Part shown: piece after piece, positions 1 through 7,509 of the stretch
Layout of the letters: each line of letters starts with the position of its first letter
Numbering within the stretch: the stretch's first letter is position 1
Assembly: GCA_947454745.1 (NCBI GenBank)
Contig: CANGMV010000023.1
Span: 1 to 9,657 of the forward strand
Source of the DNA: Bacteroidota bacterium
GTDB taxonomy: Bacteria; Bacteroidota; Bacteroidia; Chitinophagales; Chitinophagaceae
Reading direction: 5' to 3'
DNA: 9,657 bases
Program-made: the position numbers and the translations under genes
The notes under the pieces: model-generated
Told to the model about the DNA's origin: nothing
Seen by the model: only the letters and a program-made list of their open reading frames with translations
The model's database searches: none

Positions 1-3000
1 GTCTTCTAAAGCCGGAACCCAGTCAATTTCCAATGCCAGTATTTCGCGGCAAATATAATCGGAAAATTCATTAATGGAGTCCTTCAAATTTGTGTTATCC
101 ACAATTCGGAGTAAAATCTTGTCTGTAAGCTCAAAATTGGCCTCTTTTCTGATATTTTGGACCCTATTTACCAATTCTCTGGCGTTTCCTTCCTTCAATA
201 AAGCCTCACCTAGGGTTATATCCAAGGCAACAGTTAGGGCGTTTTTTACCGCAACACTCCATCCTGGGATATCCTCCGCTATAATTTCTACCTCAGCAAC
301 CAACAATGGAATCAATTCACCCTCTACATCCAGCTGAATGGATCCATCCTTCTCCAATTGGCTAATTTGAGCTTGACTTAATGCCGTGATCACCGCCGAA
401 GCTTGTTTCATTTTGGTACCTAACTTAGCGCCCAATAATTTGAAGTTCGGCTTTAATTTTTTGCTAATCACCCCTTCGGTCTCGGTGATATAATTTATTT
501 CTTTAACATTCACTTCGGCCAAAATAAGTTCCTCCATTTGTTCAATGGCTGCTTTCATTTTTGGATCCAAAACTGGAATTAATATTTTTTGTAATGGTTG
601 TCTTACTTTGATATTTACTTTCTTACGAATAGACAATACCAACGAACAAATATCTTGTGCCATTTGCATACGATCTTCTAAGGCAGTATCCATTTTTGAA
701 AGATCTGCTTTAGGAAAATCTACATGATGAATAGAAGTTGCATTGTGTCGCTTTGTAATACCATTTAAATTTCTGAAAACTTGATCACAGAAGAAAGGAG
801 CAATCGGAGCCATTAATCTAGTAATTGTTTCAAGACATTCATACAAGGTTTGATAAGCAGCAATTTTATCGTCGGTATAAGTACCTTTCCAAAAACGTCT
901 GCGACATAAACGTACATACCAGTTACTCAAATGCTCGTCCACAAAGGTTTCTATGGCACGGCCAGCAATGGTTGGCTCAAAGTCATCCATCGCAGTTGTA
1001 ACTGTTTGTACCAGTGTATTTAATGAAGAGATAATCCAACGATCAATTTCTGGTCGCTTATTTACAGGAATATAATCTTGTTCGAATTTAAATCCATCCA
1101 CATTCGCATACAAAACAAAAAACTGATAAGTATTGTATAAAGTGCCAAAGAATTTTCTTTGTACTTCCTGTATACCCGATAAGTCGAATTTTAAATTATC
1201 CCATGGCGACGCATTGGTAACCAAATACCATCTTGTTGCATCCGCACCATAAGTTTGCAATGTTTCGAATGGATTTACTACGTTACCTAAACGCTTACTC
1301 ATTTTGTTGCCGTTCTTGTCCAACACCAAACCATTACTCATAACGGCTTTGTAAGCAACGCTGTCAAATAACAATACGCCCAATGTATGTAATGTGTAAA
1401 ACCATCCACGCGTTTGGTCTACCCCTTCGCAAATAAAATCAGCAGGGAAGGCTTGTCCTTTATCGATCAAATCCTTGTTCTCAAATGGATAATGCCATTG
1501 CGCATAAGGCATGGCCCCGGAATCAAACCAAACGTCTACTAAGTCCGATACGCGTTTCATAGGCTGACCGCTTGCACTTAATAATTCAATTTGATCTACA
1601 AAAGGTTTGTGTAAATCCACGTCTAATTTACCATCGATGATTTGCAATTGCACATCCTTATTATATCCTTTCTCCTTAGCAGCAACATAAGCAGCCGTTA
1701 ATTCGTCTATCGATCCAATGCAAATTTCCTCCGTGCCATCTTCGGTTCTCCAAATAGGCAAAGGAGTTCCCCAATACCTGCTTCTTGATAAATTCCAATC
1801 CACCATATTCTCTAACCAGTTGCCAAAACGGCCCTCTCCCGTACTCTTTGGTTTCCAGTTAATGGTTTTATTTAATTCTACTAAACGATCCTTAACCGCC
1901 GTTGTTTTAATAAACCAAGCATCCAATGGATAGTATAAAATTGGCTTATCGGTTCTCCAACAATGCGGATAATTATGTTCATATTTTTCAACCTTAAACG
2001 CTCTATTTTCTTTTTTCAATTTCACACAGATGTCTACGTTTACATCGACATATTCTTTTTCGTCCTTGTAATTTTTTACATAACGTCCGCTAAATTCTCC
2101 TACGCCCTCTATAAATTTTCCTTCTCTATCAACAAGCGTAATGATGCCTAAATTATTTTTCTGTCCAACTTTATAGTCATCTGCACCAAATGCGGGCGAT
2201 GTATGTACAATACCCGTTCCGTCTTCCGTGGTTACAAAATCGCCTATTATAATTTTAAATGGATCCCCTTCGAATGTTGTTGGATTATTTGCTTCAAATG
2301 GCATTAACTGCTCATATCTTAATCCATTTAATTGCGCTCCTTTACATTCTGCAATAATTTTCCAAGGCACAATTTTATCACCTTCTGCAAATGTTTCAAT
2401 AGTCAATCCTTCTTCTTTAAAATATTTGGATAGTAATGCTTTTGCCAATACTACATTTACTGGCATTGCCGTATAAGGATTGTAAGTTGCTACTAAAACA
2501 TAGTCAATGTTAGGACCAACTGTTAAGCCTAAGTTAGATGGCAATGTCCAAGGAGTTGTTGTCCAAGCCATGTAATACACATCCTGATTGTTTTTATTAG
2601 CAGCTGCTGCATCAAACAAAAACTGAGACTCATTTGATTGTATTGCTTTAAACATTACAACTGCAGATGTATCTTTTACGTCCTTGTAGGTACCCGGTTG
2701 ATTTAATTCATGTGAGCTTAATCCCGTTCCTGCTGCAGGAGAATATGGCTGTATACTTACGCTTTGGTATAGGTATCCTTTTTTATAAAGTGTACTTAAT
2801 ATCCACCAAAGTGTTTCGATATAATTGTTTTCGAAAGTGATATATGGATTATTTAAATCCACCCAATAACCCATTTTATTCGTAATGTCATCCCACTCTT
2901 TCTTATAACGCAATACTGCTTCGCGACATTTTTTGTTATATTCTTCGACAGAAATTTTTTTGCCGATATCTTCCTTGGTAATACCCAATTCTTTCTCAAC

Positions 3001-3291
3001 ACCTAACTCTACGGGCAATCCATGCGTATCCCATCCTCCTTTTCTTTTTACCTGAAAACCTTGCATGGTTTTATATCGACAAACCATATCCTTTAAAGTT
3101 CGAGAAATTACGTGGTGAATACCCGGCATTCCATTGGCACTTGGTGGTCCTTCGTAAAATACAAATGGAGTTTTACCTTCACGTAAACTAACTGATTGCT
3201 CAAATGCCTGTTCTTTTTTCCAGGCGGCTAATATTTCGGCCTCGATTGAAGGCAGATTTAGGCCATTAAATTCTGGGTATTGGTTGCTCAT
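1..3291 (-). CDS. ileS: Isoleucyl-tRNA synthetase, type 2 (IleS2), C-terminus cut by window edge
   Basis: Cytoplasmic class I aminoacyl-tRNA synthetase that charges tRNA-Ile and edits mischarged Val. The frame is open from ATG 3291 to base 1, giving 1097 codons; with type-2 enzymes usually a little over 1100 residues, probably only a few tens are missing. Visible landmarks: N-terminal catalytic segment EGPPSANGMP then GIHH at residues 57-60 (the HxGH position), GGWDTHGLPVE shortly after, CP1 editing domain with the Thr-rich peptide AWTTTPWTLPSN (242-253) and HTSPAFGADDY ending at residue 373 (Asp371-Asp372), WFDSG at 588-592, and KMSKR at 663-667, followed by the helical anticodon-binding domain. 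The overall pattern is the type-2 (eukaryote/archaea-like) clade normal for Bacteroidota. The first Met is preceded in frame by a TAG at 3304-3306, so the start is well constrained. No Shine-Dalgarno. It follows lspA by 51 bp. The odd feature is GIHH in place of the usual HxGH. Confidence 0.97.
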   Translation of the reverse strand, partial: MSNQYPEFNGLNLPSIEAEILAAWKKEQAFEQSVSLREGKTPFVFYEGPPSANGMPGIHHVISRTLKDMVCRYKTMQGFQVKRKGGWDTHGLPVELGVEKELGITKEDIGKKISVEEYNKKCREAVLRYKKEWDDITNKMGYWVDLNNPYITFENNYIETLWWILSTLYKKGYLYQSVSIQPYSPAAGTGLSSHELNQPGTYKDVKDTSAVVMFKAIQSNESQFLFDAAAANKNNQDVYYMAWTTTPWTLPSNLGLTVGPNIDYVLVATYNPYTAMPVNVVLAKALLSKYFKEEGLTIETFAEGDKIVPWKIIAECKGAQLNGLRYEQLMPFEANNPTTFEGDPFKIIIGDFVTTEDGTGIVHTSPAFGADDYKVGQKNNLGIITLVDREGKFIEGVGEFSGRYVKNYKDEKEYVDVNVDICVKLKKENRAFKVEKYEHNYPHCWRTDKPILYYPLDAWFIKTTAVKDRLVELNKTINWKPKSTGEGRFGNWLENMVDWNLSRSRYWGTPLPIWRTEDGTEEICIGSIDELTAAYVAAKEKGYNKDVQLQIIDGKLDVDLHKPFVDQIELLSASGQPMKRVSDLVDVWFDSGAMPYAQWHYPFENKDLIDKGQAFPADFICEGVDQTRGWFYTLHTLGVLLFDSVAYKAVMSNGLVLDKNGNKMSKRLGNVVNPFETLQTYGADATRWYLVTNASPWDNLKFDLSGIQEVQRKFFGTLYNTYQFFVLYANVDGFKFEQDYIPVNKRPEIDRWIISSLNTLVQTVTTAMDDFEPTIAGRAIETFVDEHLSNWYVRLCRRRFWKGTYTDDKIAAYQTLYECLETITRLMAPIAPFFCDQVFRNLNGITKRHNATSIHHVDFPKADLSKMDTALEDRMQMAQDICSLVLSIRKKVNIKVRQPLQKILIPVLDPKMKAAIEQMEELILAEVNVKEINYITETEGVISKKLKPNFKLLGAKLGTKMKQASAVITALSQAQISQLEKDGSIQLDVEGELIPLLVAEVEIIAEDIPGWSVAVKNALTVALDITLGEALLKEGNARELVNRVQNIRKEANFELTDKILLRIVDNTNLKDSINEFSDYICREILALEIDWVPALED
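3112..3123 (-). other. Variant HxGH signature (GIHH) in IleRS active site
   Basis: Codons GGT ATT CAC CAC encode Gly57-Ile58-His59-His60, directly after Asn-Gly-Met-Pro. Aligned by eye with the usual type-2 pattern (P-x-A-T-G-x-P-H-x-G-H), the first and third signature residues are exchanged: His to Gly and Gly to His. The second catalytic signature, KMSKR, is intact at 1291-1305, and the reading frame is continuous between them, so this is not a frameshift or a degraded gene. Confidence 0.9.
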
Positions 3292-3342: not shown

Positions 3343-3996
3343 CTATTCAGCAGGGGTTTCGGCAGTAGGGGTTGAATCCTCGGGCATTTTCCCGAAAAAT
3401 TTGCCCTGAAATACAAATAAGGTAATAACGCCTGTACTAATCGCCATATCCGCAAAATTGAATACTGGACGGAAAAACTCAAATTCCTCGCCTCCCCAAA
3501 TTGGGAACCAAGTAGGGAAATGAGCATCACGGACAATCGGGAAATAAAACATATCCACTACTTTGCCGTGTAAAAACGGGGCATAGCCACCATATTTCGG
3601 AAAAAGCTGCGCCACTTGAGTAGTGTACGGCACGCTTTGCTCAAAAATCATTCCGTAAAACATACTATCTATCAAATTGCCTACAGCCCCAGCATAAATT
3701 AAGGCTGCGCAAACTATAAAGCCATTGTGGTATTTTTTTTCTATGAACCCTTTTATCAAAAACGAACCCCAAATCACTGCTACCAATCGGAATAAAGTAA
3801 GTATGATTTTTCCAAAGCCGCCTCCGAATTTTAAGCCCCAAGCCATACCCTCATTCTCTACAAAATGCAGCCTTGCCCAAGCACCTATCATGGAATGTTC
3901 CTCGCCAATAAAAAAATTAAGTTTGATATAAAACTTAATAGCTTGGTCTATAAATAAAATTAGCAGAATTAATGCGATTACTTTTTTCCCGTTCAT
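3343..3996 (-). CDS. lspA: Lipoprotein signal peptidase (signal peptidase II), Bacteroidota type
   Basis: Inner-membrane aspartyl protease that removes signal peptides from diacylglyceryl-modified prolipoproteins. The protein has 217 residues, longer than the roughly 160-170 of proteobacterial LspA. Four membrane segments are apparent (about 5-23, 62-82, 92-110, 182-201). Family motifs: Asp17 with Lys21 in TM1 (DQAIK), VENEGMAWG (46-54, the NxGxA motif), GNLID (106-110), GKVVD with Asp148, and FNFADMAI with Asp183. By homology Asp148 and Asp183 are the catalytic pair. The extra length lies in the loops between 111 and 147 and between 149 and 178, plus an acidic Pro/Thr tail (205-217). Residue 111 is Ser where many LspA have Arg, which I believe is common in this phylum. 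ATG 3996 is followed directly by TM1. It lies 62 bp after terC with its own candidate promoter, and ileS follows. Confidence 0.96.
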   Translation of the reverse strand: MNGKKVIALILLILFIDQAIKFYIKLNFFIGEEHSMIGAWARLHFVENEGMAWGLKFGGGFGKIILTLFRLVAVIWGSFLIKGFIEKKYHNGFIVCAALIYAGAVGNLIDSMFYGMIFEQSVPYTTQVAQLFPKYGGYAPFLHGKVVDMFYFPIVRDAHFPTWFPIWGGEEFEFFRPVFNFADMAISTGVITLFVFQGKFFGKMPEDSTPTAETPAE

Positions 3997-5041: not shown

Positions 5042-7495
5042 TTAGGCCGCAAATAGCCCTTTTCGATAACGCGTCCAAATGCCAAAAACTACCCATAAAA
5101 TTAGCAATGGGCCTACTAACAATGCCAATTGCCAATACATTCTTGTGTTCGCTAACTTTTCCTTGTCCAAGAGTCTTAATACCACCACTTTGTTTCTGCT
5201 CTCTAATAAACCTGCGGGTTCATTTAGCGCTGCAATGGCATTTACATAAAAGCTGTTATTGGCAAATTGGTACTCCTCAAATGGAAGCATCCCCATGGGC
5301 AAAGGCCTTAATCCGCCTTCTTGCGTTTTGGTAGTTTTATTGGTAATGATATCGGCGTCGGCAATGACAATTTGCTTTGAAACTACATTCCCTTTTGCAG
5401 CAAAATCATGTCCTGTATATATCTTAAAACTATCTCGGACCACACTGCTAATCCGATTAGCATACAAAGAATTGAATTTGCCCTCCAACAATACCGCAAT
5501 TGATACATGGTGTTTTGTAAAAGACAACATCTCCGATTCATCTTTAACACTATTTAAACTCACTACATTCGGAGTTGCAATAAAACGGGTATTGGTATCG
5601 GTACTTAATAATATTGTTTTTTTGATTTCCTTATTTGCAAGCGTATCAATACTGGAAGGGAATAAAGACAATACCCTATCCATATTTTGTGAAATGGGCG
5701 CATTGTCATTTCCATTTAAAAATGGATAGTAAGGCCAAGGTATTCTTTGAATCATCGGTGCCCCGTCGGCCTGCTTACCCACTACTATAGGGAGTTTAGC
5801 ACAATTTAAGTCTTGTACTAAATTTGCATTAATGCGCACTCCGTATTTAAACAATAAATCATCCAGTCCCAGTCCACGATCAAAAGCAATATAAGAACCA
5901 CTCGTTTTTTGAAGGCTATCATATTCGGCATACAATTTGTCAATAGCCCAAATAATATTTCCACCCCCCATCACATACTGATCCAATTTTAATTTATCGG
6001 CATCGGTAAACGGCTGAGTTGGTTTTACAATTAATAAGGTTTTGATTTTTCGCGCATCGGGGTACCCTTTCTTTAAATCAAATACCGTTAAGTGATATTG
6101 ATTTTTTATGGAGACACCTAAATCATTGACTGATAAATCCACCGGTTCACCATTACCAATTAAATAACTGATTTGAGGAACCGTCGTGCGATTTAATAAA
6201 TAAATGGCTTGTACAAACTTGTGTTCCAATAAAGCTTCAGCAGCATTGGCACTTGCTTCTAAATCCTCTACTGGAATATCTTTGACAACATTATACGGTT
6301 TAAAATATTTCTTACCAGAGCGTAAGTCAATAGCCATCGGCTTTTGACCTTGAACTTCCACAAGTGCGCCAGGAATTAGTAATTGGTCCACACGCTTGTC
6401 GGATGCATTGCCTTGATCCTGCACACGCTCAATTGGCACCCCCATTTTAGACAAACTATCATACAATTGATACAAAGCTGTATCCGCATACATTTTACTT
6501 GGCACTTCCAATTGCCATTGTATATTTTGCGGATTCATTTGCTGCAACTGATTTAATAAAGCCACTGCTGATTGCGCGATTTTCTTATAATAAGTAGGAA
6601 TCTCTCCGCCTAAATACAAATGAATTTTTACAGGAGCACTTATGCTTTTTATGATTTCACTTGAACTTGCACTTAAAGTATAGCGATGATCCTTGGTTAA
6701 ATCCAATTGCGTGGGAAAAAGCGTAACTATATAGTTTACCGCAATAATGCTAATAAGTACCAATGTGTTTTTGATCTTCCCTTTTATTTGTTCTATCGCA
6801 CCAATACCAAATAAAACAACCAAGGATATAAAGTAAAACAGATCTCTTAATGTAATGACACCCTTGTTCCCATTTTGATAATGACTTGACAATCCTAACT
6901 GCTGTACATAAAAATCAAACCCATTGTTGAAAACGGAAATTGCACTTAGCCAATCAAACCCTTTATACATTAATGCCGAAATGGCAATTGAAAATAACAA
7001 TGCAATTAAACCATTCTTGGTGATGCTACTTGTAAATACGCCAATCGCAGTATATACCGCCGACAAACATATTAATCCCCAATAAGCGCCAATGGTTGCA
7101 CCCCAGTCCAATCCTCCCACAGCACTTAAACTATCCAATGCAACTGCATATAATAAGGTGGGCAAAATTGCAACCACTACAATTAAAAACGAACCTAAGA
7201 ATTTAGCTGCCACTAATTGCACTTGCTTTATTGGCAAACTCACTAACAACTCATAAGTACCTTGTTTATACTCTTCCGAAAAACTGCGCATGGTTATGGC
7301 AGGAATCAATAAGAGCAAAAACCAAGGTGCAAAATCAAAATATACTTGCAATGAAGCATAGCCAAAGTCGAAGACATTATAGTTGGGCAATACAAACAAA
7401 AACAAACCATTGACTAATAAATAAAAGCCAATGATTAAATAGCCTGTTAAGCCACTAAAATACTGCGTCCACTCTTTTTTGCAAATTGCCCACAT
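5042..7495 (-). CDS. gldFG: GldF-GldG fusion: ABC-2 permease joined to gliding-motility auxiliary subunit
   Basis: One 817-codon frame encodes what in Flavobacterium is two proteins. Residues 1 to about 240 are GldF-like ABC-2 permease: N-terminal KKEW, the cytoplasmic RSFSEEYKQGTYELL segment (70-84), about six membrane helices, and the GldF-type HYQNGNKGVITLRDLFYF stretch near 205-222. Residues about 244-817 are GldG: a signal-anchor-like helix (244-260), DLTKDHRYTLS (265-275), a GATase-like segment with GGGNIIW (510-516), WPYYP (587-591), and a C-terminal helix (788-807) ending in RYRK. Together with an ATPase (GldA, absent here) these form an ABC transporter required for gliding in F. johnsoniae; many non-gliding Bacteroidota also keep homologues, so motility is not implied. 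The longest frame starts at TTG 7504, but that TTG lies within a TAGCTTTG box, and ATG 7495 gives the expected MWAICKKEW start. terC follows after 23 bp. Confidence 0.92.
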   Translation of the reverse strand: MWAICKKEWTQYFSGLTGYLIIGFYLLVNGLFLFVLPNYNVFDFGYASLQVYFDFAPWFLLLLIPAITMRSFSEEYKQGTYELLVSLPIKQVQLVAAKFLGSFLIVVVAILPTLLYAVALDSLSAVGGLDWGATIGAYWGLICLSAVYTAIGVFTSSITKNGLIALLFSIAISALMYKGFDWLSAISVFNNGFDFYVQQLGLSSHYQNGNKGVITLRDLFYFISLVVLFGIGAIEQIKGKIKNTLVLISIIAVNYIVTLFPTQLDLTKDHRYTLSASSSEIIKSISAPVKIHLYLGGEIPTYYKKIAQSAVALLNQLQQMNPQNIQWQLEVPSKMYADTALYQLYDSLSKMGVPIERVQDQGNASDKRVDQLLIPGALVEVQGQKPMAIDLRSGKKYFKPYNVVKDIPVEDLEASANAAEALLEHKFVQAIYLLNRTTVPQISYLIGNGEPVDLSVNDLGVSIKNQYHLTVFDLKKGYPDARKIKTLLIVKPTQPFTDADKLKLDQYVMGGGNIIWAIDKLYAEYDSLQKTSGSYIAFDRGLGLDDLLFKYGVRINANLVQDLNCAKLPIVVGKQADGAPMIQRIPWPYYPFLNGNDNAPISQNMDRVLSLFPSSIDTLANKEIKKTILLSTDTNTRFIATPNVVSLNSVKDESEMLSFTKHHVSIAVLLEGKFNSLYANRISSVVRDSFKIYTGHDFAAKGNVVSKQIVIADADIITNKTTKTQEGGLRPLPMGMLPFEEYQFANNSFYVNAIAALNEPAGLLESRNKVVVLRLLDKEKLANTRMYWQLALLVGPLLILWVVFGIWTRYRKGLFAA

Positions 7496-7501
7496 AAGCT
7501 T

Positions 7502-7509
7502 CAAAGCTA
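7502..7509 (-). promoter_or_regulatory. Candidate -7 promoter box for gldFG
   Basis: The minus strand reads TAGCTTTG, matching TAnnTTTG exactly, six bases before ATG 7495 and downstream of the isc terminator. With a start site a few bases past the box, the transcript would be leaderless or nearly so. No convincing -33 element is seen. The box contains the TTG that would begin the longest open frame, which argues against that TTG being a start codon. Confidence 0.35.

Follow-up and report, generated by a model that had tools for sequence, protein, structure and literature searches.

Type-2 isoleucyl-tRNA synthetases (IleRS2) in which the class I signature HxGH is replaced by GxHH, with catalysis retained and inhibition constants for mupirocin in the millimolar range, have already been published, as the preliminary description of the present locus had correctly stated; the published work covers the motif, what it does and how widely it occurs among IleRS2 enzymes (PMC10485003). 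The naturally ALHH-bearing enzyme of D. radiodurans (DrIleRS2) has a mupirocin Ki of 6.6 mM, which falls to 8.1 µM once the motif is changed to HVGH, and the change to GVHH raises Ki from 0.20 to 35 µM in TtIleRS2 and from 1.08 to 460 µM in PmIleRS2 (PMC10485003). For the IleRS of S. griseus (SgIleRS) a Ki of 10 mM has been reported (PMC4861432). In type-2 enzymes helix 1 has its tip closer to the KMSKS loop, which gives room for a histidine at position 3 of the signature; the imidazole of this residue stands where that of the first histidine would otherwise be, and the exclusion of mupirocin has been modelled as a clash with this position-3 histidine (PMC10485003). The same swap in the type-1 enzymes (IleRS1) of P. 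megaterium and E. coli abolished product formation, and 86 of 379 IleRS2 sequences were found to be of the G/AxHH form (PMC10485003). As far as the text of PMC10485003 and PMC4861432 goes, none of the enzymes measured comes from Bacteroidota; the string 'bacteroid' is absent from the main text of the former, the Figure 2 tree of which may include the phylum, and no paper tying Bacteroidota to GxHH was found among those listed in a search of openly available texts. The addition made here is modest: no exception to GxHH in a sample of the phylum, and no IleRS1 found alongside it.

The window, that is, the whole stretch of 9,657 nucleotides analysed, is contig C23 of a Bacteroidota assembly that is 57.66% complete and totals 1.30 Mb over 222 contigs, and the loci nearest to it (93–95% identity) lie in metagenome assemblies labelled Sediminibacterium or Bacteroidetes, a placement in or close to Sediminibacterium (Chitinophagaceae). 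Read along the minus strand, the genes follow each other as iscS, iscU, an iscA-like gene, a gldF–gldG fusion, a terC/alx-family gene, lspA and ileS. The ileS frame opens with the ATG at position 3291 and runs past base 1, with 1097 residues inside the window; the full length among the best 120 proteins listed as closest to it is 1116 residues. The first 89 bases of another contig of the same assembly, C36, are identical to window positions 1–89 in reverse complement, and a 48-residue frame there would supply the missing C-terminal end.

The encoded protein is an isoleucyl-tRNA synthetase by its TIGR00392 score (1022.8 bits, with a cut-off of 621.4). Type-2 enzymes are recognized by lacking Tyr59, NKIL and SSL of type 1 and by carrying HYPFE (PMC4861432); the window IleRS has Ser51, SRTL and TLH at the type-1 sites and HYPFE at residues 600–604, and is thus of type 2. 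Its best sequence match in the PDB is a Priestia megaterium IleRS2 mutated to GVHH, 8c8w (828 bits), with 824 and 823 bits for the wild-type-motif entries 8c8u and 8c8v, versus 341 and 333 bits for the PmIleRS1 entries 8c9f and 8c9e, so that a solved IleRS2 is nearer to it than IleRS1 (828 versus 341 bits). When its predicted model (mean pLDDT 77.7) was used in two fold comparisons, the top ranks (1–11 and 1–12) were all taken by type-2 or eukaryotic cytosolic IleRS, with type 1 below. The features of the gene are collected in Table 1.

Table 1. Features of the window ileS gene (window positions)
Feature	Position	Strand	Residues, basis or remark
ileS, type-2 isoleucyl-tRNA synthetase	1..3291	(-)	truncated by contig end; TIGR00392 match
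Ser51, in place of E. coli Tyr59	3139..3141	(-)	alignment with E. coli IleRS1
Swapped class I signature G57-I58-H59-H60, GIHH for HxGH	3112..3123	(-)	codons and alignments
Editing-domain TTTPWT	2545..2562	(-)	residues 244-249, alignment
Editing-domain GTGIVHTSPAFGADD (GTGIVH...DD)	2176..2220	(-)	residues 358-372, alignment
HYPFE, type-2/eukaryote-like motif	1480..1494	(-)	residues 600-604
KMSKR loop	1291..1305	(-)	residues 663-667
C-terminal DUF5915 domain (PF19302)	16..534	(-)	residues 920-1092

The preliminary description had read GIHH at the HxGH position with intact KMSKR and editing-domain motifs, and both readings hold. The codons GGT ATT CAC CAC (3123..3112) specify Gly57-Ile58-His59-His60, and the KMSKR and editing motifs are found at residues 663–667, 244–249 and 358–372. 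In the alignment with P. megaterium IleRS2, the window sequence MPGIHH lies opposite LPHVGH of the wild-type entry and LPGVHH of the mutant, while in that with E. coli IleRS1 NGMPGIHH lies opposite NGSIHIGH, with GIHH in the HIGH column; in neither of these alignments, which that description had suggested, does a His-x-Gly-His occupy the catalytic signature column. Residues 57–60 thus conform to the G/AxHH form, defined by a class I signature with Gly or Ala in first and His in third position. In the predicted structure a helix formed by residues 58–76 begins at the motif, where helix 1 should have its tip; the KMSKR loop is unresolved in the model, since pLDDT falls below 50 over residues 661–669. 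Asp372 is aligned with E. coli Asp342, a residue with a role in editing. Among 30 aligned rows, no residue beside the motif is strictly linked to the swap. KMSKR occurs in 17 of the 19 rows of the tree branch of the window, the exceptions being KMAKS (Taibaiella soli) and KMSKH (Prevotella sp. 299); the other phylum rows of the motif alignment carry KMSKS (six of seven) or KMSKT (one), and KMSKS is also found in all six additional phylum genomes whose loci were added and in a Saprospiraceae locus (L088).

The window very probably encodes a type-2 IleRS with GIHH in place of HxGH that is likely to be the only working IleRS of the cell, with mupirocin binding predicted at millimolar concentrations only. 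By analogy with its published relatives, the enzyme is likely to be functional despite the swap. Judging from the published enzymes of P. megaterium, T. thermophilus and D. radiodurans, helix 1 would have its tip shifted and His59 would act in the transition state in place of the canonical first histidine, a role in which it would not displace adenine, and its side chain would clash with the nonanoic part and the ring of mupirocin. Among the papers listed in a literature search over titles and abstract openings, no mupirocin MIC for Sediminibacterium or its kin was found, and none came from PMC9911510; a model presented in PMC13085705 predicts a higher diversity of Bacteroidaceae isolates with mupirocin in the media.

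The distribution of the motif was assessed by searching the DNA pattern N-G-x-P-[GA]-x-H-H in 395 genomes sampled from the phylum, among them that of the window; the sample also takes in classes other than that of the window. The pattern was found in 392 of the 395 genomes and, among those of high quality (completeness of at least 90% and contamination of at most 5%), in all 370, covering 55 family labels and 170 of 170 genera. No match was obtained in three genomes, all of them incomplete assemblies in which the motif part of ileS was not found: a protein search (E ≤ 1e-20) returned only a C-terminal part at a contig start in G291, only a ValRS-like match in G338 and no match in G354. Since the pattern also admits Ala, the reversed pattern matched in six genomes and 21 genomes held at least two matches, individual genomes read only as DNA could represent false matches; such chance matches exist but cannot account for the overall result. 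At the protein level, 34 further genomes of the phylum (five from the pattern-scan loci, 23 from the protein search and six more) gave 28 GIHH, six GVHH and no exception. Among 80 related loci that were fetched, GIHH was present in all 77 in which the motif could be read, the other three ending before it; one relative (L048) reads GPSSAYG ahead of the motif and was for this reason missed by the motif expression, although GIHH is present there too. GIHH is likewise carried by six records, two from Prevotella and one each from Riemerella, Parabacteroides, Bacteroides and Phocaeicola.

With E. coli IleRS1 as the query, no match at E ≤ 1e-120 was obtained in any of the 395 genomes; such an empty result is informative only with a positive control, which came from a separate search outside that tool, in which the IleRS1 of P. 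megaterium and S. aureus scored 820–898 bits and the H. pylori IleRS 652 bits, versus at most 354 bits for IleRS2, so that this threshold should separate the two types. A single full-length IleRS per genome was found in 23 of 23 high-quality genomes, among them two congeners (100% and 99% complete). All 21 genomes with at least two pattern matches, when searched with the protein, contained one full-length IleRS each, so that several GxHH enzymes per genome were rejected for these. In seven of them the extra protein matches (22–28% identical) fall within residues 340–936, as those of a valyl-tRNA synthetase would, and are probably of that kind, and in an eighth, G115, the extra match is a 77-residue fragment. 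This fragment belongs to a minus-strand frame of 205 residues on contig C10 of that genome (L117), a second, partial ileS beside the full-length gene, in which a GIHH-containing stretch of about 77 residues (69% identity) continues in frame as non-matching sequence. Given that the phylum sample yielded no sensitive IleRS1, the mupirocin insensitivity of the organism would reside in the target itself, with no need of an acquired gene.

The mapping of GxHH over a tree of Bacteroidota IleRS, also suggested in the preliminary description, placed the form in all 32 phylum rows of a 37-row tree, which make up one branch with a support of 91/99, below the 95/80 mark. The expectation of that description that the form is common across the phylum was borne out at the level of the DNA pattern, but as a lineage trait GxHH is not exclusive: it is not confined to Bacteroidota, since the IleRS2 of the clostridial Acetoanaerobium noterae carries GIHH. 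Further sequences from outside the phylum read HIGH (Paenibacillus), HAGH (Sutcliffiella) and HYGH (Tsukamurella). All GxHH rows lie on one side of a branch with a support of only 72/86; given this support value, the midpoint root and the long branches of E. coli and Tsukamurella, a single origin of GxHH for the phylum and Acetoanaerobium is possible, but not more than that.

Several other explanations of the locus were considered. An error of sequencing or assembly behind the GIHH codons has a practically negligible probability and is refuted by the 77 of 77 readable relatives with the same motif, which make chance or such an error very unlikely; the window ends inside ileS at a contig break, and nothing else was found that would speak for an error. 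It is highly improbable that the window gene is a divergent second copy, with a canonical IleRS elsewhere in the genome performing the housekeeping function. The incompleteness of the window assembly does leave room for another IleRS in this very genome, but in the two near-complete congeners this IleRS is the only one found, none of the 395 genomes yielded an IleRS1 match, and the isc, gld, terC and lspA neighbours are ordinary chromosomal genes. A real motif in a background in which mupirocin still binds at micromolar concentrations, leaving the organism only moderately tolerant, is unlikely, although not to the same degree. The protein background does matter, and a millimolar Ki is not automatic, since GVHH-bearing TtIleRS2 reached only 35 µM (PMC10485003); the replacement of KMSKS by KMSKR, frequent in that part of the phylum to which the window belongs, could also alter the loop. 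On the other hand, the two natural non-canonical enzymes for which these papers give a Ki have values of 6.6 and 10 mM (PMC10485003; PMC4861432).

A separate question is why the swap persists. The swap may have been fixed in the only IleRS that the ancestor of the entire phylum, taken over all the classes in the sample, possessed, and kept since, with the position-3 histidine acting in catalysis, mupirocin insensitivity passed on by descent and tRNA-dependent pre-transfer editing perhaps lost, as in S. griseus IleRS; we regard this full scenario as about as likely as not. It is fairly probable that with the swap an ancestral state of the active site has become entrenched, held for catalytic or historical reasons, and that mupirocin tolerance is a by-product and not what maintains it; this proposal concerns persistence and is compatible with the window enzyme being a working, mupirocin-insensitive IleRS2. 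It agrees with the DNA pattern in every one of the high-quality genomes across 170 genera and 55 family labels, with the lack of any departure in the genomes read as protein, with the one branch, GxHH throughout, formed by the 32 phylum rows (91/99) and with the GIHH of a clostridial IleRS2. Against it, Brkic et al. inferred two or more gains of GxHH along with a reversion in Deinococcus-Thermus (PMC10485003), so that the form can change, and natural mupirocin-like compounds may be more frequent than is known.

If the window enzyme behaves like its measured relatives, the structure of the target would make the whole phylum, including Bacteroides and Prevotella of the gut, insensitive to mupirocin. 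Surveys of the resistome aimed at acquired mupA would then overlook such insensitivity, and mupirocin-based selective media and the topical use of the drug would tend to spare Bacteroidota. The many natural enzymes with a swap in the most conserved class I signature also offer material for studying its costs in catalysis and editing.

The neighbourhood of ileS shows some features of its own. GldF and GldG form a single 820-residue frame (5042-7504, minus strand; GldF at residues 4–233 and GldG at 247–816), the junction of which is spanned by one tblastn alignment in the six near relatives with a gldFG match in their fetched flank (L012–L015, L076 and L082). The lspA gene (3343-3996, minus strand) lies directly upstream of ileS in the window and in nine of the 80 fetched loci, all close kin, and downstream of it in nine others (L075, L077, L081, L084–L087, L089 and L090) as well as in the Parabacteroides, Bacteroides and Riemerella records; 62 of the 80 loci have no lspA match within the fetched stretch. 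The lspA–ileS order is likely to have been rearranged in the window's group.

Plasmid-borne MupA and MupB of staphylococci are also type-2 IleRS enzymes. The window protein scores 803.4 and 785.9 bits with the corresponding NCBIfam models, the cut-off being 1900, and falls outside these families; the staphylococcal mupA records among the matches listed are 38–39% identical to it. Unlike MupA and MupB, the window ileS looks like a chromosomal housekeeping gene. The plasmid collection contains 197 matching records (E ≤ 1e-60), of which 142 come from Staphylococcus, and the matches listed begin with nine Bacteroidota records, six of which were fetched and are all typed as non-mobilizable. In the three of these six taken with 6 kb flanks, ileS is followed by TraR/DksA and lspA, for which reason they look like pieces of chromosome. 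L122, L123 and L128 (PLSDB NZ_OY725767, NZ_OY725923 and NZ_CP072187), with ileS in a housekeeping setting and non-mobilizable, look like mislabelled chromosome pieces. No mobilised copy of a GxHH gene was found among the fetched Bacteroidota plasmid-labelled records.

P. megaterium IleRS2 shares the overall fold of the window IleRS, with 38–41% identity over the model alignment, but the wild-type enzyme (8c8u/8c8v) has the canonical HVGH, unlike the GIHH of the window, and occurs side by side with an IleRS1 in its host (PMC10485003), whereas no IleRS1 was found in the 395-genome sample of the phylum. The mupirocin hyper-resistant G/AxHH IleRS2 enzymes of S. griseus and D. radiodurans (ALHH) differ from the window IleRS in phylum and in KMSKS, which is KMSKR in the window, but share with it the same swap of signature positions 1 and 3 in a type-2 enzyme; the KMSK loop and the editing motifs are intact in the window sequence.
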